Part shown: piece by piece, positions 2,066 to 64,000 of the stretch
Layout: each line of letters opens with the position of its first letter
Position numbering within the stretch: position 1 is the first letter of the stretch
NCBI GenBank assembly: GCA_963402885.1
Contig: OY727101.1
Location: 20,250,417 to 20,314,416 of the forward strand
Direction: 5' to 3'
DNA: 64,000 nucleotides
From: Antedon bifida
Lineage: Eukaryota; Echinodermata; Crinoidea; Comatulida; Antedonidae
Notes under the pieces: model-generated
Database searches by the model: none
The model's input: only the letters and a program-made list of their open reading frames with translations
Told to the model about the DNA's origin: nothing
Translations under genes and position numbers: made by a program

Positions 2066-4112
2066 TTAGATCACGTAAAAAAGAGCAATATATGAATGTA
2101 GTGATTAACATACTTATTAAACATATTCTGTTCCTAATTATTGGTAGAGTAAGGAACTCTTTCATTTTAAAGTCGTTCAACCTTGCCAAATATGTCAACC
2201 TTTTGATCGCAAATTCAAAACCTTTCTTTCTAAATGGCGATGTGACAGGTTCCAGAATGTGACAGGTTCCAGAATAAACGGCAAATTTAAAGACAGTTGT
2301 AGGAAACTATTCATGGTGACTTATTCATGCACAGATACTATAACACTGGACTGGCTGGTTTACTTCATGGTGGGACACCTCATGACCATTAAAAATTAGT
2401 TTGTAACCCAATACAAAAATAAATTATACTAAATATGATTTTTAAATTGTTACTTTGTATGATAAAAAGCTCAGCTAACTATGTGTATAATTTTAGTATC
2501 AAATTTGATAAAAAAATAAAAATGTTCCCTGAACCAAGGAAACTAAAATACAACAGTTTAAATTAATGTTCAAACAACCATTTAATCTACTATAGATTTT
2601 AATACGAGAAGCAACAAGGGAAAACATGATTGTACAATAGCAATAGATAAAAGTCATCAGGGTTTAATATTAAGTGTATGACAAGGATATACTGAACAAT
2701 GACTTGCCGAAACTACTTAAATTTTCCCGCAAAAATACACATAGGACTTCAGAAAGGACAACGCTATGGGAAAAACAAGGATAGTATTACTCCGTCGGGT
2801 TTATCGTGGGTGGAAAAACCATTCATAATCTGTAACTACACATTAATGACCATTTCTACTGGGAAATGTTCAGAGAAAAGGTTACCGGTGAAAAGTACTC
2901 AAAATTTAAAAGTGCAGTAATTACAACGGTTGAACGAAAAGGGAAGAACAACTCATCAGAAGGACAATGACATTAAACTTCAATTAAGCAATTTACCTGA
3001 TAAATTATCATGCTTGTTTAATACATTGATAGATTGTTTCTTTTATCAGACACACAATAGCATTTAATCGCCAATTAAAAGATAACATTACCAATGTTTT
3101 TTCTAGAGATTATCCCTGCTGCAGAGAAAATAACTATAGTCAGAGGTCCTAACTTGAAACAAAATATTTTATAATGATTTTATTTATCGCCCAACTATTT
3201 TATCTATTTATTACCATATACCAAGGCTATCTAGTTGCTATGTAGATACTGATCAAGTAGGTTTTCCAATAAAACAGAAAGATAATATAAAACATACAAA
3301 ATGTTGAATATTCAAACAAAGGTAGCATTAAAGTTCATTTAAATCGTTAAAATTGTTTAAAAAATGTATTAAAACTTTTGTAAAGATGTTTTAACTATGA
3401 TAACCACAAGCGCCCCCACGTCTAGAATTCTTAATCAATTCATCTGCCATCTGTCCCGATCTTGATATATCTTTGATACTTTCAGTTTTTCACACCCAAA
3501 ATATCCCCGCCCCCAGTTTCCTTTGTAGGCCCAAGAGCTCTCAAATTTCATTAAAAATAAATTGAATTATCATATCAAATTTATCGAACTATAAAATCCT
3601 TAAAGATGTATTGTCCCCCAAAAACATGAAAAAATAAAGATTAATAAAATCAATTTGGCTGAATTCTGTATTTTAAAATCAATTTAAATTGACAACATCT
3701 TACAGTACCTCTTCATGGAAATGTGCAGAGATTTCATCAAACAATTCCTCTTTCGTTTTCAGAATGACTTCAACATTTTTTTTTATTAACCTTGAACGTT
3801 AAATTTGAAAGAATCAATTTCAGATTTTTATCTTGTCACTAATAAATCTAAAGTTTATTTATCATAATTTGGAGATAATTGTAGAAATTATTTATAATTG
3901 CTTACAAATTTATAAGGAACTTTTCAACAATTAATTTATAAATACTCTTAAAATGTACAGATGTGGCAGTGTAACTTGGTGGTCAACAAACCTTTAGATT
4001 ATGATAAAATGAAATCAGCAATTGTAAAGGTAAAATCTTGTGGAAAAGTTTCATTGCATTTTAATTAAACATTTACTGATAATTCATTTTGAAGTAAATG
4101 TCTTACTGGTAT
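2066..4112. other. No gene seen
   Basis: Apart from repeat family D at 3.6 kb, no feature. A short minus-strand open frame at 3,391-3,489 is listed among the findings. Confidence 0.5.
3598..3715 (+). repeat. Dispersed repeat family D
   Basis: TTAAAGATGTATTGTCCCCC then AAAAACATGAAAAA and AAAGATTAATAAAA. The same order of blocks occurs reversed at 13.6 kb and in part at 17.1 and 42.9 kb. Confidence 0.5.
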
Positions 4113-38700: not shown

Positions 38701-41700
38701 GCTCTGTGTGCACTTTCTGGTATATGTGATATGCTTAAATTATGGTAGTGATATGACATCATCATGTCCATATATGGGCACATCAACTTGTTTGTCACAT
38801 AAAGTTTGATAGTGTTGACAGAGCTTTAGAACATAAACAATATACATGTGTTGCTTGAATGATAAAAAACAAACATTTAATATCATAATAATAAAACAAT
38901 AGCAAAGGATACAGGAGTAGAATGAATTGATGGCACTTAGAGCTGTTATCTGCTTTCCTTGGGTAAGGTTGTATGAATTCACCAACTTGTAATGTGACTG
39001 ACTCTGATACCTAAAAAAAACAAACAAATTAAAATTTAATTCAAGATCCAATAATTGAATAAAGCTTTGTCTACACCATCAAATATGTAATTTGTAAGCA
39101 GATATAGGTACTGTATCTAAATGTTTCCAGTATCATAGGCAGATTCTATGATACAGTATCACATATTATGTAGAAATACAGCACTGAGAATCAAATGAAC
39201 TTTTAGGATATTGTTATGGTATTTAAAATAAGCAAGCATAGTATTTTTATCAAAATATAAAAAAAAAAAAAATAAAATCAAAATATTGATATTTGTTTTG
39301 GTTTCATAACAGAGAGTTCATAGCACTTTGTTGATAAAATATAATTTTTATTTCCTGATATAAAAGATTAAATTATATTTCCTGAAAAATTGTCCAGAGT
39401 ATAGAAATTAATAAACAGACAGATAATAAATTGAAGATATCCGCATAATAATAAGATCTTTTAAGATTAAAATTTGCATGTATAACATGTGTATTTTATT
39501 TCACTTTATACCAGGTGTAATTTGTATTTCTTAGAACATTTTGTTTTAAATTATTCACAATTTATTTGTAATTAAGTGATCAAAAGTATAGAGAGAAACT
39601 TTAGTCTGTCACATAACTAAAAACATATTTATTTATACCTAAAATACTTTTATTTGTTTATTTATAATTTATTTGATCCACACTCAGCATAAAAAACCTA
39701 AATTGAATAGGACTTCTGAAATTTTTCAAAGTGAAATAATTATTGTATTAGAAAGATCTAAAGATTTTAATATATTTTTGCTGCATCCTACCACAATAGT
39801 CTGTCATACTGCTTACCAACACTTAAAACACCAGACAGATTTTTATCAAATCATTTTTTTTTTTTCGTTTGAGGGGCCTAACTAAATATTTAGAGATGAC
39901 ATCAAGATTGCACTACATGTGGTAGTACAAATAGGCCCACAAAGAAATTGACATTTTATAATGACATTTTCTTTTTATGGTTGATAAAATAAATGACATT
40001 AATCAAATACATAAAATGCAGAGTAAACCATTTATTTCTATGGAAATAATCATAAGCATTGAGGATAATTGAGGTACTGTGTATTCCGAGTAAAGTCTAA
40101 ATCAATTTATCAGTACACTGTACACAAAAAGAACGAATCAGAGCTGGTATATATGGCGTGACTGGCACTACCTAACCGACATCCAAAGTCACTTGACTGT
40201 TTTCAATTGTTATATTGTTCTCATTGTGTCAACCTCTACGTACAAAAGTATTTGTGTTTAGGATTACCAGTAAAATATTCTGCAAGAAAAACTAAAAGTA
40301 AGTTTAGACTGAAATATTAAGCATAGTATTAAGTATGTGAGGTGAATGTGCGCCTCATCTAGAAAATATTTTCTTAGAGAGGGAGGTGGGTGGGGTATAA
40401 GGCTGGTTAGGACAACATACCAAGAAAATACCAATACTTGTTGTTGTTTTTGCCTTTTTGGCTTCTTTTTCTCAAAGGACCTCATTAGAAACAATTCATT
40501 TTAGGACTTTTATGGGTTATGCTTTTAATTTATTAAGTTTTGACCTTTCTTTCCTTTATACATTCATTGTATTTTATCTGTAATTGTTTTTATGATACTG
40601 AAATAAATCAAATTAAATCAATACTGACCACCAAGGTAAATTATTTTGTAATTTTACAGATCAATTCAAAATGGCTTCAAGTAGGTTGACTACATTTCTA
40701 GAAGATATTGATGAGAAGGTTCTAGAGTGCCAAATATGCTTTAACCGACTCAACGAACCCAGAACCTTAACATGTCTTCACAGCTTCTGTCTGAGTTGTC
40801 TTGACAACTGGTTGAAGAAAACTAACAACAAACTAACCTGTCCAACGTGCTCCCAATGTTATCAGATTCCAGAGGGTGGTCTAAAGAAACTACCACCTAA
40901 CACCTTCCTGAATAATTTATTAGAAACAATTGGACAAATGACAACTACAGATAAGACCAAATGTATTTGTGGAAAAAAAGGTCAATCTAAAACCTACTGT
41001 CAGGATTGCAGAGAGTATTTGTGCCACAGTTGTAGTGATCCTCATAAGAACATTCCATCTTGCAAAAATCACAAGTTGCATTCAGTGGAAGATATTCAAT
41101 CTATGAGTGTCAGTGAGATCAATGACATGCATCCGCCTCAATGTTCCGTCCACAATGAACCTCTAACTGTGTATTGCACCATTTGCAATGTTGCCATTTG
41201 CATACACTGTTCAATCATGGATCACAAGGAATGGAAGGGAAAGGAAAAACATGTGACAATCAGCATAACAGATGCGTTTAAAACATTTAAACAAACATCA
41301 GCAGAATTAGAAAAAGTGGCAAACCAATGTACAGATAAATTAAATGATGATCTTGAAGTAATGAATGACCATGTCAAGACACTAGGTGAAAAAAGAGAAA
41401 AGAGTTTAAGAGGAATTGAAAATTATGTTGATGAATTGGTAACAAGAGTAAAAGACAGTGGAGAAAAATTAAAACGTGAAGCGGAGGCAATGTACAAAAT
41501 CAAGAGGAAATTAACTGATGCTGATATAGAGGATGTGACGACGACAGTATCACATATAAATACAAACATCAAGTTGCTACAACACTTAAGAAAAGGTAAC
41601 GAAGCAACGGCAATGTTATCTGGGAATGACGTCATTAAAGCACTGGATGATAGGATCAAGGCAGTGCCTAAAAAACAATCTGATGGTAATGCAGAGATTC

Positions 41701-44700
41701 ACTTTGTTAAACAACAAAATGCTTCATTGGACAAGGACATTGGAAAGGTTACAGAAATAAGGCCAGCAGCAGACTATTTAGAACTAATAGAAGTTGAGAG
41801 CATCACAACAGCTCAAACAATCGACGTCAAAATAATTAAAACTGACAAATGTAAAATAAAAGCAAGTAACATAAAAGCTACATTGACACAACCAACGGGA
41901 GAAACTATCATTGCTCAAGTAAAAGATGGAAATGGTGAATATACTGTTAAAGGACTATGCAGTGCAATTGAAGGAATTTGCAAGGTTGATATTAGAGTTG
42001 ATGGAGAACACATTAACAAGTCGCCAATGAGTATCAAAGTGGAGAAAGAAGGACTATTAAAAACTATAAACATAGATAATGTTACAGAAGTTCATGGTGT
42101 AGTTAAATATGATGACGATTGCTTGCTTGTTTCATGTCTAGACAATGTTATTCGCAAATACAAGCAATCAGGTGAAAACATTGGTGAGATTACACTATCA
42201 GAAGGTGTGCAAGTAAACAGAATGTACACAATGAACAATGGTAATATAGCATTCAGTGATTGGGGTAATAAATGCATCACACTATGCAGTATGAGTGGTG
42301 AGGTGGTTAAATCATTTGGTATGGGAGTGTTACGTCCACCATGGGGTATCCATGTGGATGAAGCATCACGTGTCATGTATGTAGCTAATGATGATAATGT
42401 AGCCATGCTTAACATTGAAAGTGGTGATCTCATTAAAAAAATAGCCCAATGGAATTGTACTGGTTTGAAACACACCAACATCATGGATGTCACCCTTACA
42501 AGACAAGGACAAATTCTTGTACTGCATTCTACTAAAAGCTGCTTAAAACTATTTGATACAAAGGGAAAGTATATTAAAGACCTTGTCAATGAGGGCGATG
42601 TAGATGGTAAAGTAACGCACCCAATAGGAGTAGTAGTTGATGATGATGACAATATCATAATATCAAGTTACCACAAACTACAGCTATTTAGTAATAGCGG
42701 AAAGTTTATTAAAAGGATCGATAAAGAAGAAGATGGAATCAACCATCCTCAAGTTTTATCTATCTTATCACACCATCCGCGTAGACTTGCAGTGGCAAAT
42801 AATGGTGATAAAACTGTAAAAATATTTAATTATTAAATAAGCTAGTGCTCAAGATATAAGACCATAATATAATGCTATTAGTTTTCATCGATGTTTATAG
42901 AAATTGTAAAATATTATAATAATTTACATAAGGTTAAAGATGTATTGTCCACCTGAAAAATATTTCTTAAAAAAAATGTTATGTTATGTTATGAATTCCA
43001 TACTAGTTTATTTATATTTTGATATCAATCTTGAAAATATGTCTCGAAAGGAAATGATTTGTAGAGAGGCTCCAACTTGAGGGCATAGTTCATAGACTAT
43101 ACCATTTGTGAACAGGGGTGTTTAATGAAAAGATAAAAGTTATATCTCGCTCCTCGAGTATAGGCATGAAATCAACTACATACTAGTTTAATTCTATATC
43201 TTATAAATCTTGTAAAAAATGATTGCTATTATGTATATTGCTTTACTGGCTTAAGATTACAAATGTTTTTAACATATAATGGTCATACATTTTAATAAAT
43301 CCACTGTTTACTGTGATTTTTAAAGTTCACTTATTTAATTCATTGCTACACTGATAATCAACCATATTTGTGGTGCTGTACTACTGTAGTACAGTTTTAA
43401 AAGTGTATAAAAAATTATGCATTTTTTTTCCTCCAAACTATGACATGATTTGTAAACCATTTGATTGGTCAGTTTTAAAATCGTTAAAATCTGCAATCGA
43501 GTTCAACTTCAACGATTGCACATTTTAAAGATTTTTAGTGTTTATTTTTACCCCTTTTCCTGTAAAATCATTGAATCCGGTCAATTTAACGCAACTCAAC
43601 GTCGACTGGAAAACAGGCTTAACATTTGCAGCAAGATCATCAAACAATTCACTTTGTGTATTAATTAAAGATTCTTTCTAAAGCAATGCTATCACATCCT
43701 GCTAACATGTACAATATCATTTCAACAAGGATATTGTCATATTAGACAGAGAATCCAAATGCTTTGAAATGGGTGTGAAAAGACAGTGTACGTTAAATGC
43801 GAAACACCTTTACTGAACAGAAGGGGGAGGGCTATGTCACAACTTATCTTGAATCTTCAATTCAACAACATTTTGGTAATAGCTCTTCGACCCCGTCATG
43901 GGTCACCAATTGGCACGATTCCATAATTCGGCCTGATGATATGACCTGTTCCTATTATTAAGTGCAGTTGACTAGAGTTATTCTTCCAAACTTGATACTA
44001 CTGGATGAGTAACAATTACCCATAGTACAAAATCATTGACTTAACAATCTTCTAAAGATGTTTTGGATAACAGCCTATAGTTTGTTGAATGTCATGTTAA
44101 AACATGCACATTTATGTTTCAACAATAATACACAATGGTTGAATTTGCATACTATATTAGATACAACACAGAACAAATAACAAATTGACAACATTGTTCT
44201 TCAAATTATTTCTAATGTTATCAATAAAGTTGAATACAAACTGTAACATTAACCACAATATGATAAGTGCCAAAAAAGCAGGTGGTAATTTAAATGTTCA
44301 CCTGTATTTAATCATGCAAAATTATGTTTTCAAAGAACAACATGGAAAGTTTTATATTCTTATAAATAGATTTTTCATTTTGTCTCAAAGAAATAGAAAT
44401 TCTACAAAAACAAATCTGAACATGCAGATTCATGTTTCAATAATAATACATGAATGTTTAATTGTTTGCATAATGATTTCATTTGCATAATCTATAACAT
44501 GCAAATATTATGTTTTAATTAACAATACGGAACACATGCAAATTGATAACAGTTCTCAATTACTCCTAATGTTATCAATACAGTAGAATATAAACTGTAA
44601 CATTTTAAATAACAATATGAAAGTGCCAAGAAAGCAGGTGATAATTTAAATGTCCGCCTGTATTTAATTATGCAAATTAGGTTTTGAAGGCACAACATGG

Positions 44701-56700: not shown

Positions 56701-59663
56701 CAATGAATATATGTACATAATAATGTTACTCAACTGTACAACAGAACTGTTGTGTGTGAGAAATGATGGAAGATTAGCAGCACTGCTAGGCCGGGACTTT
56801 GTAGGCCTAACTCGATAGAAAATACCCAGTATGGTGTTTCCTGCCTCACTCTGGTCATCTTCATCATTCTGAAAGGTGTCGTCTGCAGTGGGCTGTTGTG
56901 TTTTCCAAGATGGCTTACTGGATATTGTTGATGCTTCTCCTGAAAAGTAAACAAAAGTTACATTGTGTTACTGTAGGTTAGTATTTCTTATACAAGCAAT
57001 AACCAACATTATTTCACACCTGAGTAGATTCTGGTCATTTGATTGGAGGATTGTGGGTCACATGATATTCGATAAACTACTCCAATTTTGTCATATACGA
57101 GTGCACTTTGTTATTGCATTGCAAGTTGAATTTTGCTATATGCTTGCTTATATGCACTATATAAGAATGAAATATTATTATTATTTACCAAGTTCTTGGT
57201 CAGTATGAAGCCTTGACATTTGTACCTTCTGTAAGTGTTTAGCTACATCTATCTGATGTAACAAACGAAACCCACTTGAATCACTCATGTCATATATACG
57301 CACCTAATAAAAAACAAAAACATACCAATGGAATAGTAGAAAGAAAATATAAGATAATTTTAACTGTCAAATGCAAGAGCATGTGACTCAAGCGCTACCC
57401 TCATGGATCCATACCTGCGCAATGAGTGTGTGGAGGGGTAGCATATTAAAGCAAGCCTAACATTTTTTTTTTGTGAGGAAAGTTGAATTCTGAAACAAAA
57501 TAGATAATGTGTGTGTAGCTTTCATCATTGTTTTGAACATTCTCTAATGTGAAACAAATTACTTTATAAAAGAAGTACCTGGCCATCAGTTGAGCCTATT
57601 GCTACTTGTTCATTTTCATAATTCCAAGCTAGACACAGAAATGGAGAACCTAAAAACAAAAAGAAGTGTAGTGTTGTAGTAGTGGACTATCTATACAAAT
57701 AGCTTAAACATGCACCATTTGCACTGCACTTTGTATTTAAGCTCTGTTAGAACTGGGATTTTCAACAAAAGTTTTTTTACCCTTTTTTTCATAAATGGCC
57801 AATCAAGCATCTTTAAATACATTGAGGTTGAAGAGTGGTCAGTTGGTAACAGTAATTCAAAATAAATTGAACGTCACAAACATAACCTAAAGAGAAAAAG
57901 GAATGAGAGAGGAATATTTTTACCTGATATTATTGTTGACTGGTATATAAGTACACTATTATTGATATCCCAAACCTGAAAAATATATAATATTTCAACT
58001 GGTTAATTTATATTAAATCAGAAATTTGACCTACAAAATTATTAAACATTCTCCTATTATTCTCTTAAGCTCTGTCTACACTATCAAACTTTATGCGACA
58101 AATAATGTGAAATTCCCATATATGTACATGATGTCATATCACTACCATATTTGGGTACATAACACTTTTCTAATCTAGTTTGATAGAGCCTACCATATTT
58201 GAATATATACCATACCAATGATAATCATTACCTTAAATGTCCTGTCCTCCGATACAGACACTACCATCGCCCCATGATGTGGTGAAAACTCTGCACTGGT
58301 CACTCTAGCAGTGTGCCCTTCCAATGTTGTGTGCAGGTGCTCAGACTGTGTATAAATTATTATACATATAATGCAAATTTACAGATACAGCATGAGTGTG
58401 AATTCATATCGTGTAGGGATTTGTAAGTAATACACCAAAGATGAAGTTACCATCAAAATGGAACCCAACTTAACTGGTTGATATGAAACTGATTGCGCCG
58501 AGCGCAGATAAATGCAACACAATGATGTAGGGGAAGCACAAATGAGTTGACCAATCACAGCGACAGTATAGTTAATCCATCGTGCCGTGATTGGTCATTT
58601 ACGTCCCGTGTTGCGATCAAGTGGGAACCAAGCTTTAAGACTACAATCAATTTATTATTGCAAAGATTTCAACAAACCTGCGATGACAAAATGAGAACCT
58701 CTTTATCAATGCAGACTGCCACCAATGAATCATCTGGACTGAAATTAAGATGTTCAACACAGCCTGGTGTAGAAAAGATCACAACACCTCGAATTTGACT
58801 ACCTGAAAAAAAATCACAACAAATAAACACACCACTACTATGGCTACTATACTTTTCAAAAAGAAGCCCATCTCGAAAAATATGTGAACTTGGGAGGTAA
58901 TGTCTAAAAAATCCTATTATTGTATAGCAATTACATTTACAGCATTCAATTCAAAAAGAAGCTCCCCTCTTTAGTTTGCAAAAGTATCTTGAAAAGAAGC
59001 CAACCCAAGAGTACTAAATAAGAAGCCCATGGGCTTCCTTTCGAGGTTTTACGGTATACCTTGTTCATATGAAGCTCTGGCTTTCTGGACGTTCCACACT
59101 ATGATGTAATCTGGTGCGGCAGTACATAGTAGAGGAGGTTGAGGCTGTGAGCCAAAGCAAACACAGCTGATTGGCTTGCTGTGCCCAACTAACTCCAAAG
59201 GCTAGTAGAAGAAATATAAAATGTAAGCACAATATTTTTCCATTGAAAATGCTCCTTAATTTAAGAGTTATGTTCTGGAAAAGAAAGATTTAATAAAAAG
59301 TAAACTTTGTAGGCTTATGTGAATTTCCAAGGAAAACTCAGCTAGAGTTTGCAACATAGTTGTGATCGCATCTCTATCAGAGCAATTCCTTTCCTATGAC
59401 CGTTACAGACCATACCACAATCGTACTGGGTTTAAAGTGCGAAAATTCCATTTTAGGATTACAAAATGCAAATTACTTTCATCCAGCATTTCCCGTTTTG
59501 ATGTTTAACAATAATTACCTTTGAAGAAATGCTCTGCAGACTCCATACTGCCACCGATGTCCTGCCCATTGGCAGGGCCACATATGTTCCATTGCATCCC
59601 AACTGTACAGCATCACTTGATGTATTCATACTCCATTTGTGAACAGCCATGTTTAGTTTATAT
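20663..59663 (-). CDS. WDR27: WDR27 (WD repeat-containing protein 27), 21 coding exons, 3' end missing
   Basis: WDR27 is a WD40 beta-propeller scaffold protein of poorly defined function. I assembled 21 exons on the minus strand, each with AG/GT borders and compatible phase: 59663-59519, 59201-59060, 58802-58678, 58345-58232, 57975-57924, 57649-57579, 57303-57189, 56939-56826, 56178-56077, 55946-55852, 55711-55527, 55188-55021, 54662-54591, 54324-54218, 53812-53723, 53616-53462, 53019-52886, 39010-38913, 28312-28191, 26635-26538, 20765-20663. The joined frame has 798 codons without a stop. Motifs agree in order with vertebrate WDR27 as I remember it: an N-terminal propeller (GHSKPISCVCFG, GHTARVTSAEFSP, VSEDRTFK), a low-complexity linker (FHSKIKSSGYSQ, MFSPKT), then a second propeller (GHDSSVNCVSWS, HSQFYYMDKFI, IKIWDLRT, FSPCGKYIATGSED). 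Vertebrate WDR27 is roughly 830-860 residues, so about 50 residues with the final WD repeat are missing. The intron after exon 17 holds an antisense TRIM-NHL gene. Confidence 0.92.
22828..22925. mobile_element. MITE family A, left half
   Basis: CTAAAGCTCTGTCTACACTA through GTGATGTGCCCAAATATGG, then truncated near TGACATCATCG. In WDR27 intron 20. Confidence 0.65.
26538..26635 (-). CDS. WDR27: WDR27 coding exon 20
   Basis: Residues 732-764: SAYDLFATSAITDAIKIWDL then RTNR, a blade ending in the classic WDLR. The acceptor is TTCTTTTTTCAG and the donor ACAG/GTACTT. Phase 0 in, phase 2 out. Confidence 0.92.
26800..26995 (-). mobile_element. Retroposon copy with (ATT)n tail
   Basis: On the minus strand it ends in GGGGCTATACAAAAGACAAT followed by an (ATT)n-like tail, the typical end of LINE-mobilised repeats. 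The body includes a block complementary to GAGATGGGTTATCAGCAACTG, of a kind common in marine invertebrate repeats. It lies in the WDR27 intron before exon 20. Confidence 0.45.
27009..27028. mobile_element. MITE family A, right-end fragment
   Basis: GGTGTAGACAGAGCTTTAG directly beside the retroposon at 26.8-27.0 kb. Confidence 0.4.
27545..27658. mobile_element. Composite SINE-like repeat with tRNA-like boxes on both strands
   Basis: Plus strand: TGGTGCAATGGTTAGAGC then GTGGGTTTAAGCTC (A- and B-box-like). Minus strand from the other end: GAGTGGCCGAGCGGTTAAGG, a good tRNA-Leu/Ser A box. A related copy lies at 30,810-30,900. Confidence 0.5.
28191..28312 (-). CDS. WDR27: WDR27 coding exon 19
   Basis: Residues 691-731: IVLCAGSDKSLEVFDMNVGK then VHERTIHVIKQNQ. 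The acceptor ATGGTAAAG lacks a strong pyrimidine tract, but the phase and the conserved IVLCAG favour it over a second AG inside GTGCAG/GT. The donor is CAA/GTAAAG. Confidence 0.85.
28440..28715 (+). repeat. 55-bp minisatellite with palindromic core
   Basis: Five to six diverged units built on AGTTGATCATGATCAACACT, then CACAGGTTCACATA. In the WDR27 intron, 130 bp before the exon 19 acceptor. Confidence 0.85.
30100..30320 (+). repeat. 42-bp minisatellite
   Basis: Units of CCCACTGAAATCTACAATCA plus ATCTCAGAGATCTGAAATCA. Because 42 is a multiple of three, one frame stays open as a repeated NPTEIYNQSQ peptide. No start or splice context supports a gene. Confidence 0.85.
30810..30900. mobile_element. 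Second copy of the composite SINE-like repeat
   Basis: Carries GCATAGTGGTTAGAGCATTG on the plus strand and the shared GCAGCGCCCTGCCCTAA block at the other end. Preceded by an (ATTG)n microsatellite at about 30,757-30,781. Confidence 0.45.
32352..32497. mobile_element. Short TIR element (MITE) inside the SINE
   Basis: Left end CCAGTGGAGTAACATAGG, right end complementary to CCCAGTGGCGCAACGGCTA. G/C-rich body with GGGGCCC motifs, about 145 bp, no ORF. It appears nested in the SINE body. Confidence 0.5.
32498..32700 (-). mobile_element. tRNA-derived SINE, same family as at 9.2 kb
   Basis: Minus-strand head GAGTGGGCGAGGAGTTAAGG, a B-box-like GAGGTTGAAGTCTC, then the body blocks CAGATAAGGATCC and AAAGAACTCAGTACATC. 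The body is interrupted at 32,497 by a short TIR element. Confidence 0.6.
38697..38829. mobile_element. MITE family A, full copy beside WDR27 exon 18
   Basis: TTAAGCTCTGTGTGCACT at the left, AGTTTGATAGTGTTGACAGA at the right. It lies 84 bp beyond the donor of WDR27 exon 18. Confidence 0.65.
38913..39010 (-). CDS. WDR27: WDR27 coding exon 18
   Basis: Residues 658-691: NSYNLTQGKQITALSAINSF then YS. The acceptor is a T-rich tract ending TTTTTTTTAG and the donor is TCCT/GTATCC. Joining to the next exon restores SFYS-Y-IVLCAG, as in vertebrates. MITE sequence lies within about 100 bp on both sides. Confidence 0.88.
39060..39087. mobile_element. MITE family A, left-end fragment
   Basis: AAAGCTTTGTCTACACCATC, 50 bp upstream of WDR27 exon 18 in gene orientation. 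With the copy at 38.7 kb it brackets the exon. Confidence 0.5.
40148..40297 (+). promoter_or_regulatory. Candidate TATA box and untranslated first exon of the TRIM-NHL gene
   Basis: TATATAT at 40148-40154 is followed 143 bases later by a donor (CTAAAA/GTAAGT, GT at 40298). Together with the acceptor that ends at 40659 this would give a 5' UTR exon starting near 40180 and an intron of about 360 bp. Inferred from signals only. Confidence 0.35.
40671..42836 (+). CDS. TRIM-NHL family E3 ubiquitin ligase, intronless CDS (TRIM2/TRIM3/TRIM71-like)
   Basis: 721 residues, complete. RING finger of C3HC4 type at residues 20-60 (C20, C23, C35, H37, C40, C43, C57, C60). B-box 1 at about 98-134. B-box 2 at about 158-194 (C158, H161, C169, C172, C180, H185, H194). 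Coiled coil at about 200-340, rich in K/E/D. Filamin-type Ig domain at about 370-465 (SPMSIKVE end). A C-terminal beta-propeller of NHL-like repeats at about 475-721, ending in the strand KTVKIFNY. The architecture and length match TRIM2/3/71 relatives, which ubiquitinate targets through the RING and bind protein or RNA through the propeller. The target cannot be read from sequence. Large lineage-specific sets of such single-exon genes are known in marine invertebrates. A splice acceptor (GTAATTTTACAG) ends 11 bases before the ATG. It lies antisense inside a WDR27 intron. Confidence 0.95.
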   Translation: MASSRLTTFLEDIDEKVLECQICFNRLNEPRTLTCLHSFCLSCLDNWLKKTNNKLTCPTCSQCYQIPEGGLKKLPPNTFLNNLLETIGQMTTTDKTKCICGKKGQSKTYCQDCREYLCHSCSDPHKNIPSCKNHKLHSVEDIQSMSVSEINDMHPPQCSVHNEPLTVYCTICNVAICIHCSIMDHKEWKGKEKHVTISITDAFKTFKQTSAELEKVANQCTDKLNDDLEVMNDHVKTLGEKREKSLRGIENYVDELVTRVKDSGEKLKREAEAMYKIKRKLTDADIEDVTTTVSHINTNIKLLQHLRKGNEATAMLSGNDVIKALDDRIKAVPKKQSDGNAEIHFVKQQNASLDKDIGKVTEIRPAADYLELIEVESITTAQTIDVKIIKTDKCKIKASNIKATLTQPTGETIIAQVKDGNGEYTVKGLCSAIEGICKVDIRVDGEHINKSPMSIKVEKEGLLKTINIDNVTEVHGVVKYDDDCLLVSCLDNVIRKYKQSGENIGEITLSEGVQVNRMYTMNNGNIAFSDWGNKCITLCSMSGEVVKSFGMGVLRPPWGIHVDEASRVMYVANDDNVAMLNIESGDLIKKIAQWNCTGLKHTNIMDVTLTRQGQILVLHSTKSCLKLFDTKGKYIKDLVNEGDVDGKVTHPIGVVVDDDDNIIISSYHKLQLFSNSGKFIKRIDKEEDGINHPQVLSILSHHPRRLAVANNGDKTVKIFNY
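42933..42985 (+). repeat. Dispersed repeat family D, fragment in the TRIM-NHL 3' UTR
   Basis: GTTAAAGATGTATTGTCCAC, the end block of family D, 97 bp after the TRIM-NHL stop codon. Confidence 0.45.
43294..43299 (+). terminator. Candidate polyadenylation signal of the TRIM-NHL gene
   Basis: First clear AATAAA after the stop codon, about 460 bp downstream, followed by a T-rich stretch. The implied 3' UTR includes a fragment of a dispersed repeat at about 42,933. Confidence 0.35.
44098..44715 (+). repeat. Imperfect tandem duplication, unit about 320-360 bp
   Basis: CTAATGTTATCAATA, AGTGCCAA(A/G)AAAGCAGGTG and CAACATGGAAAGTTT occur in the same order at about 44,210-44,355 and 44,567-44,708. Confidence 0.75.
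45828..45995 (+). repeat. 82-bp tandem duplication
   Basis: Two units with TGGGAAGGTTACGGTA, AACTGCCCAC and AATTATTGGGTAT. Lies just left of TIR element B. Confidence 0.8.
46017..47103. mobile_element. TIR element B, 1.1 kb, non-autonomous
   Basis: Left end from about 46021, GGCTATGTTCAGACCCATGG, continuing about 40 bp with GTTAGACCGTTTTAGCGTAC. The right end (to 47094) is its reverse complement, near perfect over 40 bp. Both sides carry TTAAA, a possible 5-bp target duplication. The interior has further CGTACGACGCTA-type inverted motifs and no transposase-like ORF. Confidence 0.65.
47640..48050 (+). repeat. Tandem triplication, unit about 100 bp
   Basis: CACTTTGCAAACTTGATCCA, then CAATTTGTTACTAAAGATCC and AATACCTGATA, in three copies. 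Copies 2 and 3 (47,818-48,008) are almost identical. Confidence 0.85.
48575..48727 (+). mobile_element. LINE 3' tail fragment
   Basis: T-rich 3' UTR-like stretch that ends in AATAAAACTGAACTGAACTG, a short tandem tail. Flanked by C-runs (AGCCCCCC on both sides) that may be the interrupted target or host repeat. Confidence 0.35.
48730..50090. other. WDR27 intron 17, no gene seen
   Basis: AT-rich intron sequence. Nothing recognised. Confidence 0.4.
50095..50700 (+). repeat. Diverged tandem repeat, unit about 150 bp
   Basis: Four weak copies of CTACTTTAGGGACTA, TTTTCTTACAC and, less regularly, CACCTTGGGA. In the long WDR27 intron. Confidence 0.65.
50701..52885. other. WDR27 intron 17, no gene seen
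   Basis: AT-rich, including an AATTACAATAAATAATAATT inverted repeat near 51,400-51,490. No coding signal. Confidence 0.4.
52886..53019 (-). CDS. WDR27: WDR27 coding exon 17
   Basis: Residues 614-658: IKHSQFYYMDKFIIISCDKA then YLYKYLIDTSVDDIKR. The HSQFYYMDKF block is a signature of WDR27. The acceptor is AATTCTTAG and the donor AAAAG/GTAAAT. It is followed by the 13.9-kb intron that contains the TRIM gene. Confidence 0.92.
53462..53616 (-). CDS. WDR27: WDR27 coding exon 16
   Basis: Residues 562-613. A full WD blade: GHDSSVNCVSWSHGNQYLLT, then GSNDKTVKLWKKSS. The acceptor is GATTTGTAG. The donor AAG/GTTGGT is weak, but it is the only phase-0 GT site before the frame stops. If unspliced, the frame runs another 19 codons to a TAA ending at 53402, so an alternative end is possible. 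Confidence 0.8.
53723..53812 (-). CDS. WDR27: WDR27 coding exon 15
   Basis: Residues 532-562: DGQNLACALANKSSMAFK then SSKCISFTG, leading into a GHD motif in the next exon. Very similar to the vertebrate DGQWLACGLAN block. The acceptor is TATTTTTAG and the donor ACAG/GTAAAT. Confidence 0.9.
53930..54170 (+). repeat. Diverged CTG-type array in WDR27 intron 14
   Basis: Dense TGCTGC, GCTGCTA and GTAGCTGCTG motifs over about 240 bp, between exons 14 and 15. It is interrupted, so not a pure expandable tract. Confidence 0.8.
54218..54324 (-). CDS. WDR27: WDR27 coding exon 14
   Basis: Residues 496-532. It includes KAYPVDASPPTKLKVKQSVA and the start of the second propeller (TPIHQIAFS). The acceptor is TTCTAACTTAAG and the donor TCAG/GTGAGA. 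A CTG-type trinucleotide array lies just downstream in the intron. Confidence 0.85.
54591..54662 (-). CDS. WDR27: WDR27 coding exon 13 (72 bp)
   Basis: Residues 472-496. The conserved MFSPKTNKLKGKSTPK motif of the inter-propeller linker. The acceptor is ATTTTTTAG (ending at 54663) and the donor GCAAA/GTAAGC. Phase 2 in and out. Confidence 0.85.
55021..55188 (-). CDS. WDR27: WDR27 coding exon 12 (basic linker)
   Basis: Residues 416-472. A Lys-rich linker (KSKAETKPKKNSAQKK) followed by the conserved block LTFHSKIKSSGYSQ, which recurs in vertebrate WDR27. The acceptor is TTTTTTAAAG and the donor CCCAG/GTACGA. A nuclear-localisation role for the Lys run is possible but unproven. Confidence 0.86.
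55237..55345 (+). mobile_element. tRNA-like SINE head in WDR27 intron 11
   Basis: B box GGTTCAAATCC at 55290-55300 with a degenerate A-box region GTTGTACCGTTATGGTCC 50 bp before it. Followed by a tail with a T8 run. No cloverleaf forms cleanly. Confidence 0.45.
55527..55711 (-). CDS. WDR27: WDR27 coding exon 11
   Basis: Residues 355-416. It starts IWCLVGSIFQSEAHVLSVDT, the end of the first propeller, then becomes a Ser/Thr-rich linker. The acceptor is TTTTCTCCAG and the donor TCAAG/GTAGTA. Phase 0 in, phase 2 out. Confidence 0.86.
55852..55946 (-). CDS. WDR27: WDR27 coding exon 10
   Basis: Residues 323-354: DSLPSEQSLDTPMKSISLVG then TYSFSGSHDQEK. The acceptor is CATCATAG and the donor AAAAG/GTTTGT. 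Phase 1 in, phase 0 out. Confidence 0.86.
56077..56178 (-). CDS. WDR27: WDR27 coding exon 9
   Basis: Residues 289-323: LLEVPPVLIVGTTASILIIN then a short strand ending in RVIDLQ. Of two tandem acceptors (CATAG and CATAGAG), only the second keeps the frame open. The donor is CAAG/GTATTT. Phase 1 in and out. Confidence 0.85.
56400..56672 (-). mobile_element. SINE body in WDR27 intron 8
   Basis: Shares GAGTCGAGTG, CAGATAAG, GGAGGTCCAG and AAAGAACCCAGTGCATCTTT with the copy at 32.5 kb (minus strand), and extends further 3'. It sits 150 bp downstream of exon 8, which makes that exon's donor look weak by context. Confidence 0.5.
56826..56939 (-). CDS. WDR27: WDR27 coding exon 8 (linker)
   Basis: Residues 251-289. 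A Ser/Thr/Asp/Glu-rich linker (DDTFQNDEDDQSEA) that matches a poorly conserved stretch of vertebrate WDR27. The acceptor is CTTTTCAG. The donor CTGG/GTATTT is not strong, but it is the one that keeps phase with the next exon. A SINE lies shortly downstream in the intron. Confidence 0.75.
57189..57303 (-). CDS. WDR27: WDR27 coding exon 7
   Basis: Residues 213-251. It starts VRIYDMSDSSGFRLLHQIDV and continues with a charged linker (KHLQKVQMSRLHTDQEL). The acceptor is TTTTTTATTAG and the donor CTTG/GTAAAT. Phase 0 in, phase 1 out. Confidence 0.88.
57579..57649 (-). CDS. WDR27: WDR27 coding exon 6 (71 bp)
   Basis: Residues 189-212: SPFLCLAWNYENEQVAIGST then DGQ, a blade with the GS(T/A)DGQ turn. 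The acceptor is GTTTTTAG and the donor CCAG/GTACTT. Phase 1 in, phase 0 out. Confidence 0.88.
57924..57975 (-). CDS. WDR27: WDR27 coding exon 5 (52 bp)
   Basis: Residues 172-189, VWDINNSVLIYQSTIIS: the W-D end of the blade begun in the preceding exon. The acceptor is ATTTTTCAG and the donor CAG/GTAAAA. Too short to see without homology, but phase and flanking exons fit. Confidence 0.88.
58064..58192. mobile_element. MITE family A copy in WDR27 intron 4
   Basis: Begins CTTAAGCTCTGTCTACACTA; the centre has ATATGTACATGATGTCATAT; the right end AGTTTGATAGAGCC is partly deleted. 40 bp beyond the exon 4 donor. Confidence 0.65.
58232..58345 (-). CDS. WDR27: WDR27 coding exon 4
   Basis: Residues 134-171. 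It encodes LEGHTARVTSAEFSPH and VSVSEDRTFK, a canonical WD40 blade and one of the best matches to vertebrate WDR27. The acceptor is ATACACAG and the donor AAG/GTAATG. Phase 0 at both ends. Confidence 0.92.
58678..58802 (-). CDS. WDR27: WDR27 coding exon 3
   Basis: Residues 92-133. It contains CVEHLNFSPDDSLVAVC followed by a beta-strand run (KEVLILSS), one blade of the first propeller. The acceptor is TTTTTTTTCAG and the donor GCAG/GTTTGT. Phase 1 in, phase 0 out. Confidence 0.9.
58860..59055 (-). repeat. Palindromic repeat family E in WDR27 intron 2
   Basis: On the minus strand: AAAACCTCGAAAGGAAGCCC, then TTAGTACTCTTGGGTTGGCT and TTTTGCAAACTAAAGAG. A second copy lies at 63.4 kb in the opposite orientation. 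Confidence 0.6.
59060..59201 (-). CDS. WDR27: WDR27 coding exon 2
   Basis: Residues 45-92. It encodes a WD repeat with GHSKPISCVCFG and APDYIIVWNVQKA, typical GH and W-N/D ends. The acceptor is TTCTACTAG and the donor ACAAG/GTATAC. It enters in phase 0 and leaves in phase 1. Confidence 0.9.
59519..59663 (-). CDS. WDR27: WDR27 exon with start codon
   Basis: Residues 1-44. The ATG is at 59650-59648 in a good context (AAACATGG) and is the first ATG after a clear acceptor (TTTTCTTTTAG) that ends at 59664. The 13 bases before the ATG are 5' UTR, so at least one untranslated exon lies further upstream. The peptide begins MAVHKWSMNTSS and ends in SLQSISSK, followed by the donor GTAATT. It ends in phase 0. 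Confidence 0.85.
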
Positions 59664-60850
59664 CTAAAAGAAAATAAATATTATAGCTATTGTAATAACA
59701 TGTCACATGAAGTTGAGTTAAATGTGTTCTGTGTAAATACTTATTTGGAACTTTCAATCACATTGAATGTATGGTATGGGTAACCACAACTAGTTACAAT
59801 CGGTTCCACGTTGTCGACATAAGCCGCACTCTGTTAGTGTTAGTTATGTTTTATTTTGGTCGAGATAAAATTAACTTTTGGCATAAAAAAACATGTACTC
59901 AATAAAAAAGATGAGTAAAAATAATAGTATTTAATGCATTATCACAAAAGTATCATATCAGGTCATTATTAATTAGTCAGTATCACCTTTTTAAATTTAT
60001 TAGGCCTACTAAAAATCCTTACATCAAATACCTTTCATAACTCTACCATATGGCCTAGTACTATTACTAGGAGGTAAGGGATACGGTCTCTCTGTTATAC
60101 GGTAGGCTACTAACTAGGCCTACTATTACTAGCCTAGTAGCCGAGAGGGCCGCCGAGTGAGTGCCGCCGGTGTGTGAATGGGCAGCCTAAAAATAAATAG
60201 CCAGCAGGCCTAGCCTACTACTACTACTACTAGCAGTTATACGTTAGGTAGGCCTAGGCTTTTTGCTAAATAAAATTCTTAAACTGCACAGATAATGCTA
60301 GGCCTAGAATATATACAAACGTTTTCCTGATAATACAGTAAAACAACCCTTGTTTAAGCCATAACAACACACAACAAACCACCTGTTTTCAATTTTGTGT
60401 TTTAAAAGAAAACGCCCTCACACAAAACTAATTAGAAAAACTTAGTAACCAATCAAATTGTCGTATTTATTATTGTATAGCAAACACAGTGACTCCAGTT
60501 TAATTCATTTTAAAAAACATATCGAAACGTTGATGTTGCGCAAAATTCTTATAATAATAATTCATTACACTTTGTAAAATTATTTTGTTTACTCACAGAA
60601 ATATATTTAATTCTTCTCTCGTTATTCTTGATTTTGTTCGATTTCTTTTCTATATTGTTTAATGAAAAAATGTAATTGCTATGTACTTTGTTGTTTCCAA
60701 ACTAACTCTTATGGAATAACGTTCACTTCGATTTTCTGACTAATCCCACCCTCAACAAATTCTAATCAATGTTTAGAAGTAACTTACCTACCTATCGTCA
60801 TTGTGAGGTATTCTACTCACCTCCCTCATCGGAGTCAATTTTCTTTTGTA
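59664..60850 (-). promoter_or_regulatory. WDR27 5' region with candidate untranslated exon
   Basis: The acceptor at 59664 requires an upstream exon. The best donor candidates on the minus strand are TTTCT/GTGAGT (exon ending at 60597) and GGTAG/GTAAGT near 60788. Neither can be confirmed from sequence alone. A locally CpG-richer patch lies at about 60,120-60,200. Five TAGGCCTA-type motifs occur between 60,000 and 60,310. Confidence 0.35.
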
Positions 60851-60854
60851 AATG

Positions 60855-60953
60855 TATTCTATTCTTGAGTTAAAACTCAATAGTTGTTCCTCTACACGAA
60901 AATCTTTAGTAAAAGGCGAAAGATTTATGCGTGGTGCAGAGAAACCACAGTAA
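60855..60953 (-). ncRNA. U5 spliceosomal snRNA-like gene or pseudogene, copy A
   Basis: U5 snRNA is the U5 snRNP core RNA; its loop I contacts both exons during splicing. Read on the minus strand from about 60953, the sequence follows U5: TGGTTTCTCT (5' side of stem I), then the invariant loop I block CGCCTTTTACTAAAGA (60918-60903), then AGAGGAACAAC (3' side of stem I). The match to metazoan U5 is close to identical over about 45 nt around loop I. After GAGTTTTAACTC, no Sm site of the form AAUUUUUG is visible and the 3' hairpin is weak, so this may be a pseudogene with a decayed 3' end. The ORF that overlaps it on the same strand is spurious. Confidence 0.8.
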
Positions 60954-60974
60954 AGAGAAACATCTGACAATGGT

Positions 60975-61010
60975 AATATGTATAAAAGTACCTATCGAAA
61001 TAAATAGGTT
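60975..61010 (-). promoter_or_regulatory. PSE-like block upstream of U5 copy A
   Basis: The minus-strand block AAACCTATTTATTTCGATAG lies about 40-60 nt before the inferred 5' end. A related block, AAACCCATATATTGCGATG, sits at about the same distance before copy B (around 61,650-61,670). Metazoan snRNA genes carry a proximal sequence element near -55, so position and conservation fit, but the element is species-specific and I cannot confirm it. Confidence 0.4.
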
Positions 61011-61526
61011 TGGAATAGTGTCTGTTATTAACAAAGTTAGTAACATTTTTGAATCTGTACTGGAGTTTTTAACACTACAAGCCTAAAGTATCTTAATATA
61101 GGTTAAAGAAATTATTATAAAATAGTAACATAAATATTAACAAAACGTGGAAAAAGTACAAAACCCATGCCTTCATTTGCATATTTAAAATAGTTATTGA
61201 AGTTAATAATCGAGTTCGTTGTTACGTAACAAGGCGTTCAATTGAATACCGTACAATATTGTGTTGAAAACAATTTTGTAATTAAAAAATGTAACACTTA
61301 CAAATAAATAAAGTAATTTGTTAGGCCTATGATTTCAATTAATTAAAAATACATCATAATGGGTATTGTGTAGCTTCGTAATCACCAAATAAAGTCTATT
61401 CTACAAATCACCATTGAGAATATAAATGTATATCTCGTAGGTTGTCTTGACAATAATAAAATAGTAACAGTTTCACTTTCACTAACACTTTAATAATTAC
61501 CCTCGTTAATAAAATAATAAAAAAGG

Positions 61527-61615
61527 GATGAGAAAAATTGACTTAAAACTCAATAGTTGTTCCTCTAGACGGAAATGGCGAAATATTTATGCGTGATGCA
61601 GAGAAACCAGAGTAA
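61527..61615 (-). ncRNA. U5 snRNA-like pseudogene, copy B (loop I deleted)
   Basis: A second U5-like copy about 660 bp upstream of copy A in the same orientation. It keeps ACTCTGGTTTCTCTGCA, ATTTCGCC, TAGAGGAACAACT and TTGAGT, so stem I can still pair (ACUC with GAGU). About 10-11 nt of the loop I core are missing. Downstream it has CAATTTTTCT (61540-61531), which resembles an Sm site better than anything in copy A. Without loop I it cannot work as a normal U5, so it is probably a pseudogene. Confidence 0.72.
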
Positions 61616-62095
61616 AGAGAAATACGTCACTTGCAGTATGTATGGCATTCCACATCGCAATATATGGGTTTTGATTATTCATAACAATTAGTAAACATAA
61701 CATAACCAGCTCAAACTTGAGAAGATTGTAAATTATCTTTCAGTTAAACTTGTCAACTAAATTTAGCATTAGAAAAAGTTTTAACTAATTATTTTAATTA
61801 GAATAGTGTTACTTGTAGTTAGTTAAAATGTCTAAAAGTTAGAAATCGAACAAACAATGCTTATATGGTTTGCATATTGAGGTATATTCAGAGCGTCATT
61901 CTGACGACTGGAGCATTCTCTACTTCTCTACGGAGCGCCATTTATGCCTTTATTAACTTCAATAATAGAAATAGTACTACGGTAACTGTGGACCCAATTT
62001 AGCACCAGGGTAGCACAGTGATATAATAGAAATAAGTCACTACTGCTCAAGTGGACCTAATTTAAAGTCGCTTCAATAAGTTTCAATATGATATG

Positions 62096-62221: not shown

Positions 62222-62829
62222 TATCTTTTCGTATGTTAATACACTGTGCTCAAATGGCCACAATTTGGCACCAGTGGAGCACAGTGATATAAACTATAAA
62301 TAAGTCACTGAATGTTAATATCTTTTCGTATTTAAAACATCGAGAAAAAATACTTCTGGAAATACTTCAAAAATATTTCAAACTTGCTATATATGCTAAA
62401 TATCGGTTACTCCATCCGTAATGCAAAAGAAAAATTAGTTTCAAGCCATATCAGTGATTTTAATAACTTGCGTTTGTCTAAGATAAATACTTATTTAGTG
62501 TCTCCGGAAAGTGCACATATTCATTGAAATATGAAATTAAATATTAAGTCTCCAGTACTAGCCCACCATGGAGCTAATAATGAAAATAGAGCCCAGAATT
62601 GCACTTATATACTACTATTAACAAAATCAAAATTTAACAGTGTGGCGTGTTGACCGCGAATGACTAACAATAGCATCTTTCCCACTACACCTGCACGTGA
62701 CCATTGCATAACAATGCACGGCATACCAAACCGTTTCGTACACCTGCGATGAATATATAATAAATTCAATTTCTTTTAAAATTGAGGGCGGCAAACATAA
62801 AATTTACGAGATCAAATACAGGTTGAAAA

Positions 62830-63100
62830 AAAAATTTAAAACAAAAAAGATGTAAAATGTGCTCTCCCTGCCTCAGCACTAAGGCCCTGCCACAGCCTTT
62901 TGGGGTCGTTTCCACCACATCACCAGATGCATTGATGTTGTCGCCTCATGATGTGTGGTGGAAAGGGGGACGTATAATTCTGTGAACCCCAAACACAGTG
63001 GCCGCATGCCTTTAACTCTATTCCACCGACCAGCGTGGGAATCGAACCCACGACATACGTGTTGTCAACACGACGCTCAGGCGACTGAGCTAACTGATCA
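62830..63100 (-). mobile_element. SINE with intact tRNA-Val-like head
   Basis: Minus strand 63099-63028 folds as a full 72-nt tRNA: 7-bp acceptor stem (GATCAGT with GCTGGTC, two wobble pairs), D stem GCTC/GAGC, anticodon loop TTGACAA (GAC, Val), 5-nt variable loop, T arm GTGGG-TTCGATT-CCCAC. The D loop lacks the GG pair needed in a working tRNA, the anticodon stem has a T-T mismatch, and GAC is not the usual eukaryotic Val anticodon. A body of about 200 bp with no terminator right after the head follows. So a SINE is more likely than a tRNA gene. Confidence 0.65.
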
Positions 63101-63291: not shown

Positions 63292-63424
63292 GGAATTGGA
63301 AATAAATATTGTTTTTCTTTGACTTTGAAAGAGAGATATTTTGAGGTTTGTAAATGTCAGGCCTAAACAAGTGGACCTTTTTTTAAATCAAAAACAAAGT
63401 TGCATGGCATTATTTTCCATTAAA

Positions 63425-63560
63425 TAGACTACTGCCATAAAACCTCGAAAAGAAGCCCATGTGCTCCTTCATTTTTAGTACTCTTGGGTGGGCTTCTTTT
63501 CCACATGAGTTTTTTTCGAGATTACTTTTGCAAACTAAAAGAGAAGAGCTGTTAGGTTCC
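63425..63560 (+). repeat. Palindromic repeat family E
   Basis: AAAACCTCGAAAAGAAGCCC, TTTAGTACTCTTGGGTGGGC, ACTTTTGCAAACTAAAAGAG. It matches the 59-kb copy. Confidence 0.6.
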
Positions 63561-64000
63561 CGCCCGGAAAATGTTTTATTTACATGATTTGAATGAACAA
63601 TTTTCTAATGTAAAGATTAACAACATCAAATTTAACAGTGTGGCGTGTTCACCGCGAATCTTCCCCATAATACACCTGCACAAACTCATTTGCATAACAA
63701 CGCACGGCATACCAAACTGTTTTGATGCAAGGTCCCCGGAAATGACATCTATTTTTATTACAACATGTATAACAATCTTTAGTACCCTACCATTTTTGGG
63801 GCTGAGCGAAGACAATTTTGAAAAATAGAGCTGCATAGGTTCTCACCCGAAATAAAGGGCACTTTGCATGATTTGAAATTATATGAAAAAAAATTATATA
63901 AGAAAGTGCCCCTATTCATTGAAATATGAAATTAAATATTAAGTCTCCAGTACTAGCCCACCGTTGGGGCAGAGCTATAATAATGAAAATAGAGCACAGA

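Follow-up and report, generated by a model that had tools for sequence, protein, structure and literature searches.

Two U5 snRNA-like loci in tandem (copies A and B) were identified on the minus strand of a 64,000-nucleotide stretch of the Antedon bifida genome (contig C14, positions 20250417-20314416; hereafter the window). Based on comparison with the remaining U5 genes of the genome, which comprises 315.6 Mb in 27 contigs, these are probably orphan genes of the array type that lie outside the homogenised clusters on contig C7, each carrying a disabling lesion. We place the probability of this reading at roughly 0.83. Copy A lacks the Sm site and 3' stem, and copy B lacks most of loop I.

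Identification of two U5-like loci

The earlier note on this DNA had reported a tandem pair of U5-like loci from inspection of the letters and proposed a covariance-model search, which we carried out with the Rfam U5 model (RF00020, family cut-off 40 bits). Copy A (60837..60953, minus strand) exceeds the cut-off with 71.8 bits (E 3.6e-10) and aligns to all 117 of the 117 model positions. Copy B (61509..61615, minus strand) scores 39.0 bits and falls short of the cut-off by 1 bit, with E values of 0.011 when the whole window is searched and 0.0003 when the search covers 1.8 kb. The pair is thus real, and the start of one copy lies 662 nt from the start of the other, a distance within the 500-700 nt range of 75 of the 86 spacings in the main U5 array. 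Searched up to E 1, the window yields no third match to the same model; in the adjoining 10 kb of the contig (L028), searched up to E 0.1, tRNA-like units and no U5 copies were found.

The resemblance around loop I had been judged hard to explain by chance, and genome-wide counts agree. A loop-I 17-mer with at most one mismatch occurs at 102 sites in 315 Mb compared with 6 for a reversed-pattern control, and a 25-mer from the 5' half with at most three mismatches occurs at 106 sites compared with 0 for its control, copy B being among the exact matches. A chance origin of the U5 likeness is excluded. An open frame of 67 amino acids (60991-60788) overlaps copy A.

U5 genes elsewhere in the genome

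The main U5 array occupies 70 kb of contig C7 (11.468-11.538 Mb) and contains 87 copies with an exact loop I, all on a single strand. A second cluster of 7 copies is found on the same contig at 14.06 Mb. Three additional genes are dispersed, two on contig C1 (C1a and C1b) and one on contig C16. These score 97.3-97.8 bits and have a body slightly different from the array type, a different upstream sequence, and no octamer within 320 nt. All of the 100 loop-I 17-mer matches listed fall in U5 loci, namely the C7 clusters, the two C1 genes, the C16 gene and, as the only match on C14, copy A. A genome-wide search for the U5 family returned at least 47 loci; these are the 47 top candidates out of 33,706, and every one lies on C7.

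The main array itself (C7:11468000-11537999) includes at least seven altered copies in which the U5 3' half is combined with a changed or absent loop. In three of these, an identical foreign sequence (AATACTGAAATACTGAAATACTAAAG) replaces the 5' half. Among the matches listed, U1, U2 and U5 each possess one large tandem array (C7:23473301-23577557, C10:17590369-17692042 and C7:11473844-11535495, respectively) together with other copies whose upstream sequences differ. Some of the listed U2 copies outside the array score 191 bits compared with 189 within it, and a single U1 copy among those listed scores 138 bits compared with 129 in the array. The 14 U4 matches among those listed form groups of 9 and 4 plus one single copy. 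U4 is excluded from the promoter comparison below, as the motif used located no U4 starts.

Copy A retains loop I and lacks the 3' end

Loop I of copy A is exact, and its U5 homology extends from +1 (60953) to approximately +89 (60865), ending within the beginning of the Sm block. Compared with a consensus of 94 array copies, the body of copy A is identical at 80 of 85 positions and the aligned spacer at 85 of 155 (p 3e-11). The Sm block matches at 4 of 10 positions and the 3' stem at 8 of 24, or 12 of 34 combined. No Sm-like run was found near +88, in agreement with the original description of copy A as a locus with loop I and without an Sm site. Beyond +89 the sequence is background-like; in local alignment, 174 of 300 shuffles resemble the array as well as it does. 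One base pair of lower stem I is broken in the RF00020 alignment. The predicted fold of copy A (-24.7 kcal/mol, z -2.42, with 2 of 200 shuffles as good) is 11 kcal/mol weaker than that of an array copy (-35.9 kcal/mol, z -5.99, with 0 of 200 shuffles as good).

The loss of this 3' end by a micro-inversion of approximately 36 bp, which would have flipped the Sm site, was considered and rejected. When reversed, the tail of copy A reads AGTCAATTTT and agrees with copy B at 10 of 10 positions. However, 36 of 295 random tails were as good in an initial version of the test, and with free breakpoints 104 of 600 random tails from the window matched equally well, making such an inversion an improbable origin.

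Copy B lacks most of loop I and retains the Sm site

Relative to the other copies, copy B lacks 11 nt (TTTTACTAAAG) at a deletion junction at 61576..61577, which removes most of the invariant loop I. Its Sm site (AATTTTTCT, 61531..61539) is intact (10/10) and lies at +77; the same site lies at +88 in the three dispersed genes (C1a, C1b, C16) and in the single array copy tested. The 3' stem region (CCCTT ... GAGGG, 61500..61528) has a lengthened loop and agrees at 19 of 24 positions, giving 29 of 34 together with the Sm site (p 9e-4). Against the 94-copy consensus, 69 of 74 aligned positions of the body are identical compared with 94 of 171 in the spacer (p 5e-10), and the sequence past the 3' stem resembles the array weakly, since 8 of 300 shuffles do as well.

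The note had described copy B as missing about 10 nt of loop I while keeping an Sm-like sequence and stem I pairing. The loop loss stands, corrected to 11 nt, as does the Sm site. The stem I pairing holds in part: short pairs are present in the model alignment, but the RNA as a whole is predicted to fold no better than shuffled sequence (-16.0 kcal/mol, z -0.56, with 56 of 200 shuffles as good).

Promoter elements

The proximal sequence element (PSE) upstream of copy A (CAAACCTATTTATTTCGATAGGT, 60990..61012, minus strand) is identical to that of the U5 array at 23 of 23 positions. In the genome, these 23 nt occur exactly at 71 places of the main array and at 4 of the second cluster; the one further exact site is that of copy A. 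Allowing up to three mismatches, 103 sites are found compared with 2 for the control. Additionally, a distal block (61168..61187) containing the octamer ATGCAAAT (61182-61175) agrees at 18 of 20 positions and is situated 229 nt before the start of copy A. The octamer lies at 242-256 nt in 84 of the 87 main-array copies and at 237-253 nt in 5 of the 7 copies of the second cluster. The 62 nt upstream of copy A are array-like (0 of 300 shuffles as good in local alignment), and its spacer is weakly so (13 of 300).

The PSE of copy B (61651..61673) is eroded, with 16 of 23 positions retained, which by itself is not better than the spacer of copy B. However, the PSE region remains recognisable, as positions -62 to -1 are similar to the array and likewise to copy A, in each case with 0 of 300 shuffles as good. 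An octamer-like sequence (ATGCAAAC) is present at 61868..61875; a link to the array octamer is not supported, since the corresponding block agrees with the 94-copy consensus at 13 of 20 positions, alone not above spacer, and 236 of 300 shuffles are as good. The spacer of copy B is not array-like (179 of 300). The upstream block that had been described as common to the two copies therefore corresponds to the PSE region, with the octamer in copy A besides.

The core of the vertebrate 3' box (AARRYAGA) is found exactly at +133 in C1a and C16 and with one mismatch at +131 and +148 in C1b, and is absent from the array copy tested. Copy B has a single one-mismatch match at +214, and copy A has one-mismatch matches at +89, +112 and +219. 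We do not consider those in copy A to be a residual 3' box, given that they are one-mismatch matches only and that the tested array copy itself has none.

Origin and fate of the pair

Both in the body and in the PSE, copies A and B follow the array and not the dispersed genes. Over the aligned positions their gene bodies are 93-94% identical to the array consensus, in contrast to the flanks, which for the most part align poorly. In a tree of 47 rows and 147 columns the two copies are joined with each other (82/76) and placed outside the uniform array copies. However, tree support is weak, with values of 26/83 at the deepest two forks and an unsettled bootstrap. The two copies also have differences from the commonest array sequence in common (TTTACT at the start, and TTTTAA). 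By their promoter homology, the two array-type copies were duplicated as DNA rather than by retroposition, and both were probably functional through much of their history before being disabled later and separately. Because the bodies agree so well while the flanks hardly align, the comparison suggests that selection or conversion long maintained both copies and that the loss is recent. However, gene conversion from the array could likewise have kept the bodies similar, despite the differences from it that copies A and B share; this, along with the score of copy B 1 bit under the Rfam cut-off, the weak tree, the weak or absent spacer homology and the unsupported octamer block of copy B, tempers our preferred reading.

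In U5 snRNA, loop I holds the exons and the Sm site confers stability. Neither copy should yield working U5 RNA, because copy A is without an Sm site and 3' stem and copy B is without most of loop I and is predicted to fold at the level of shuffled sequence. The promoter of copy A appears to be alive and that of copy B eroded. RNA from copy A would acquire no Sm ring and would presumably be degraded. RNA from copy B, if made, could carry an Sm ring, and exon holding would be impossible.

The earlier note had left two readings side by side, a genuine U5 cluster now represented by decayed copies or a diverged but active copy A, and the evidence favors the former: an array-type body and PSE occur in both copies, and each has a disabling lesion. 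It is very improbable that copy A encodes a variant U5 snRNA that is still active and merely ends in an atypical 3' sequence. The exact PSE, the octamer, the retained loop I and upper stem, and the score of 71.8 bits would be expected of such a gene. However, the Sm site, the 3' stem (8/24) and any homologous 3' end are all missing, the sequence after +89 is at shuffle level, and the broken lower stem I pair and weakened fold described above point in the same direction. Retroposed pseudogenes scattered through the genome without the upstream block had been named in the note as an observation that would refute its account. The loop-I sites listed are instead all U5 clusters, dispersed genes or copy A, and upstream homology extends from the exact array PSE of copy A to the PSE region of copy B, whose likeness lies beyond 300 shuffles. 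Both copies are defective and situated away from the main cluster, as retroposed sequences often would be. However, an RNA copy brings no upstream promoter, so the exact PSE and octamer block located 5' of the transcribed part of copy A contradict retroposition. The array-like and A-like 62 nt upstream of copy B (0/300) and the array-like spacing of 662 nt also stand against it, and we regard a retroposed origin as extremely unlikely.

A WD40-repeat gene downstream of copy A

We identified a WD40-repeat gene, overlooked in the first reading of this DNA, downstream of copy A and on the same strand. The Pfam WD40 model matches two of its three exon pieces at 35.2 and 44.7 bits (cut-off 27), and the first piece scores 15.8. 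The start of this gene may resemble WDR27. Its first clear WD40 coding exon (59519..59663, minus strand) contains an ATG at 59650, with a candidate acceptor (TTATTTTCTTTTAG) before 59663, 13 nt ahead of that ATG, and a donor after 59519.

Two consensus 5' splice sites (60788..60821, minus strand) follow copy A, GAG|GTGAGT with its last exon base at 60821 and TAG|GTAAGT with its last exon base at 60788. They are the only two occurrences of AGGTRAGT in the 128,000 strand-bases of the window, starting at 60822 and 60789; elsewhere, 2 occurrences are found in the 94,000 strand-bases of the other loci examined. Scored with a donor matrix not trained on this genome, they rank first and fourteenth among all donors of the window. 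The random probability of two such donors within 200 nt after copy A is approximately 2e-6, a value that overstates the case, as it was computed after the sites had been noticed. These donors would define an exon 1 of 133 or 166 nt counted from the start of copy A. The longer form includes an upstream ATG at 60801 that shares the reading frame of the WD40 protein, and in the shorter form the sole upstream frame is of four codons.

In a less likely but possible reading, the WD40 gene now uses copy A for its promoter and its first exon, with splicing from 60821 or 60788 to 59663. Under such a scheme the event that deleted the 3' end of copy A would have left the U5 promoter and the first 89 nt before a donor site, and transcripts would begin at copy A, read through, and be spliced into the WD40 gene. 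Service to that gene would account for the PSE (23/23) and octamer block (18/20) having remained intact though the snRNA 3' end is gone. However, their preservation may simply reflect a recent death of copy A. The shared strand, the top-ranking donor as one of the window's only two AGGTRAGT sites, the position of TTATTTTCTTTTAG relative to the ATG and the in-frame ATG of the longer exon are consistent with promoter use. The break in U5 homology lies just 44-77 nt from the donors, and any first exon of usual length would therefore extend into the U5 body. Additionally, the 371-nt stretch that begins in the tail of copy A is not a recognisable repeat, as a DNA search in which simple repeats and very common words were skipped matched only the sequence itself.

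Against this scheme, the donor sites were counted only after the pair had drawn attention. Five other acceptor-like sites, located between 60326 and 60066, score above 5 bits, a level that the acceptor before 59663 does not exceed, again with matrices not trained on this genome, and the exon structure proposed here is therefore provisional. snRNA transcripts are also normally intronless, as described in the literature on snRNA promoters (PMC5493778). The fuller proposal, that a U5 gene with a PSE and octamer promoter lost its 3' processing signal and now provides the WD40 gene with promoter and 5' exon, contributing a spliced mRNA leader that bears an intact U5 loop I stem-loop, appears slightly more doubtful still. 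Among the papers listed on snRNA-promoter capture, readthrough, exonisation, and U5 variants or pseudogenes, no title or abstract opening describes such a case.

Other features of the window

A tRNA-like Val(GAC) sequence is present at 63026-63100 on the minus strand of the window, and two more occur on the minus strand of the adjoining 10 kb (L028:1228-1300 and 3010-3082). The GAC anticodon is unusual in eukaryotes. In a genome search, the 40 candidates scored out of 600 were all identical over 91 nt. Several of these units are arranged in tandem approximately 1.7-1.9 kb apart and several are near contig ends, and they are probably a tRNA-bearing satellite.

An uninterrupted frame of 721 amino acids is found on the plus strand at 40671-42836, with Pfam matches to RING and B-box domains. 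The best matches among solved structures are TRIM2 and TRIM3, the NHL-repeat part included. Similar short frames also recur in pairs when compared by eye (58946-59109 with 63410-63604, and 62605-62775 with 63576-63842). Their recurring motifs are PRVL..MGF.SRFYG and GMPC.VMQ...ATLLN, and the frames are probably dispersed repeats.

Comparison with known systems

The U5 genes of this genome provide a clean example of an snRNA family shedding copies, with a homogeneous array, a handful of dispersed genes that have another promoter, and a pair left behind whose lesions affect two different essential parts. Should copy A indeed drive the WD40 gene, it would offer a natural test of how closely an snRNA promoter is tied to short, intronless, Integrator-processed transcripts, and would reveal how such a promoter behaves once the 3' signal has been lost.

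Compared with the U5 family as represented by RF00020 and by the array and dispersed genes of this genome, copy A retains loop I, the upper stem, the octamer block and an exact PSE, and copy B retains the Sm site, the 3' stem and an eroded array-type PSE. However, each is without a part needed by a working U5, and the score of copy B stays 1 bit under the family threshold.

Variant U1 genes in human are a second point of comparison. One source covers variant U1 genes along with the anatomy of snRNA promoters and the coupling of the promoter to 3' processing (PMC5493778), and another reports that some human U1 variants are produced yet unstable (PMC7328512). The variants resemble copies A and B in being promoter-bearing snRNA copies with altered bodies, some of the U1 copies being transcribed and unstable. 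The present pair differs from them in that its lesions are complementary and that copy A directly precedes a protein-coding gene of the same orientation. U5 isoforms have been described in Drosophila and mouse (PMC4291461), and the Drosophila isoforms, like the genes examined here, comprise several diverged U5 paralogues within a genome. However, according to that source, the fly isoforms retain the 3' stem-loop structure, whereas copy A does not.
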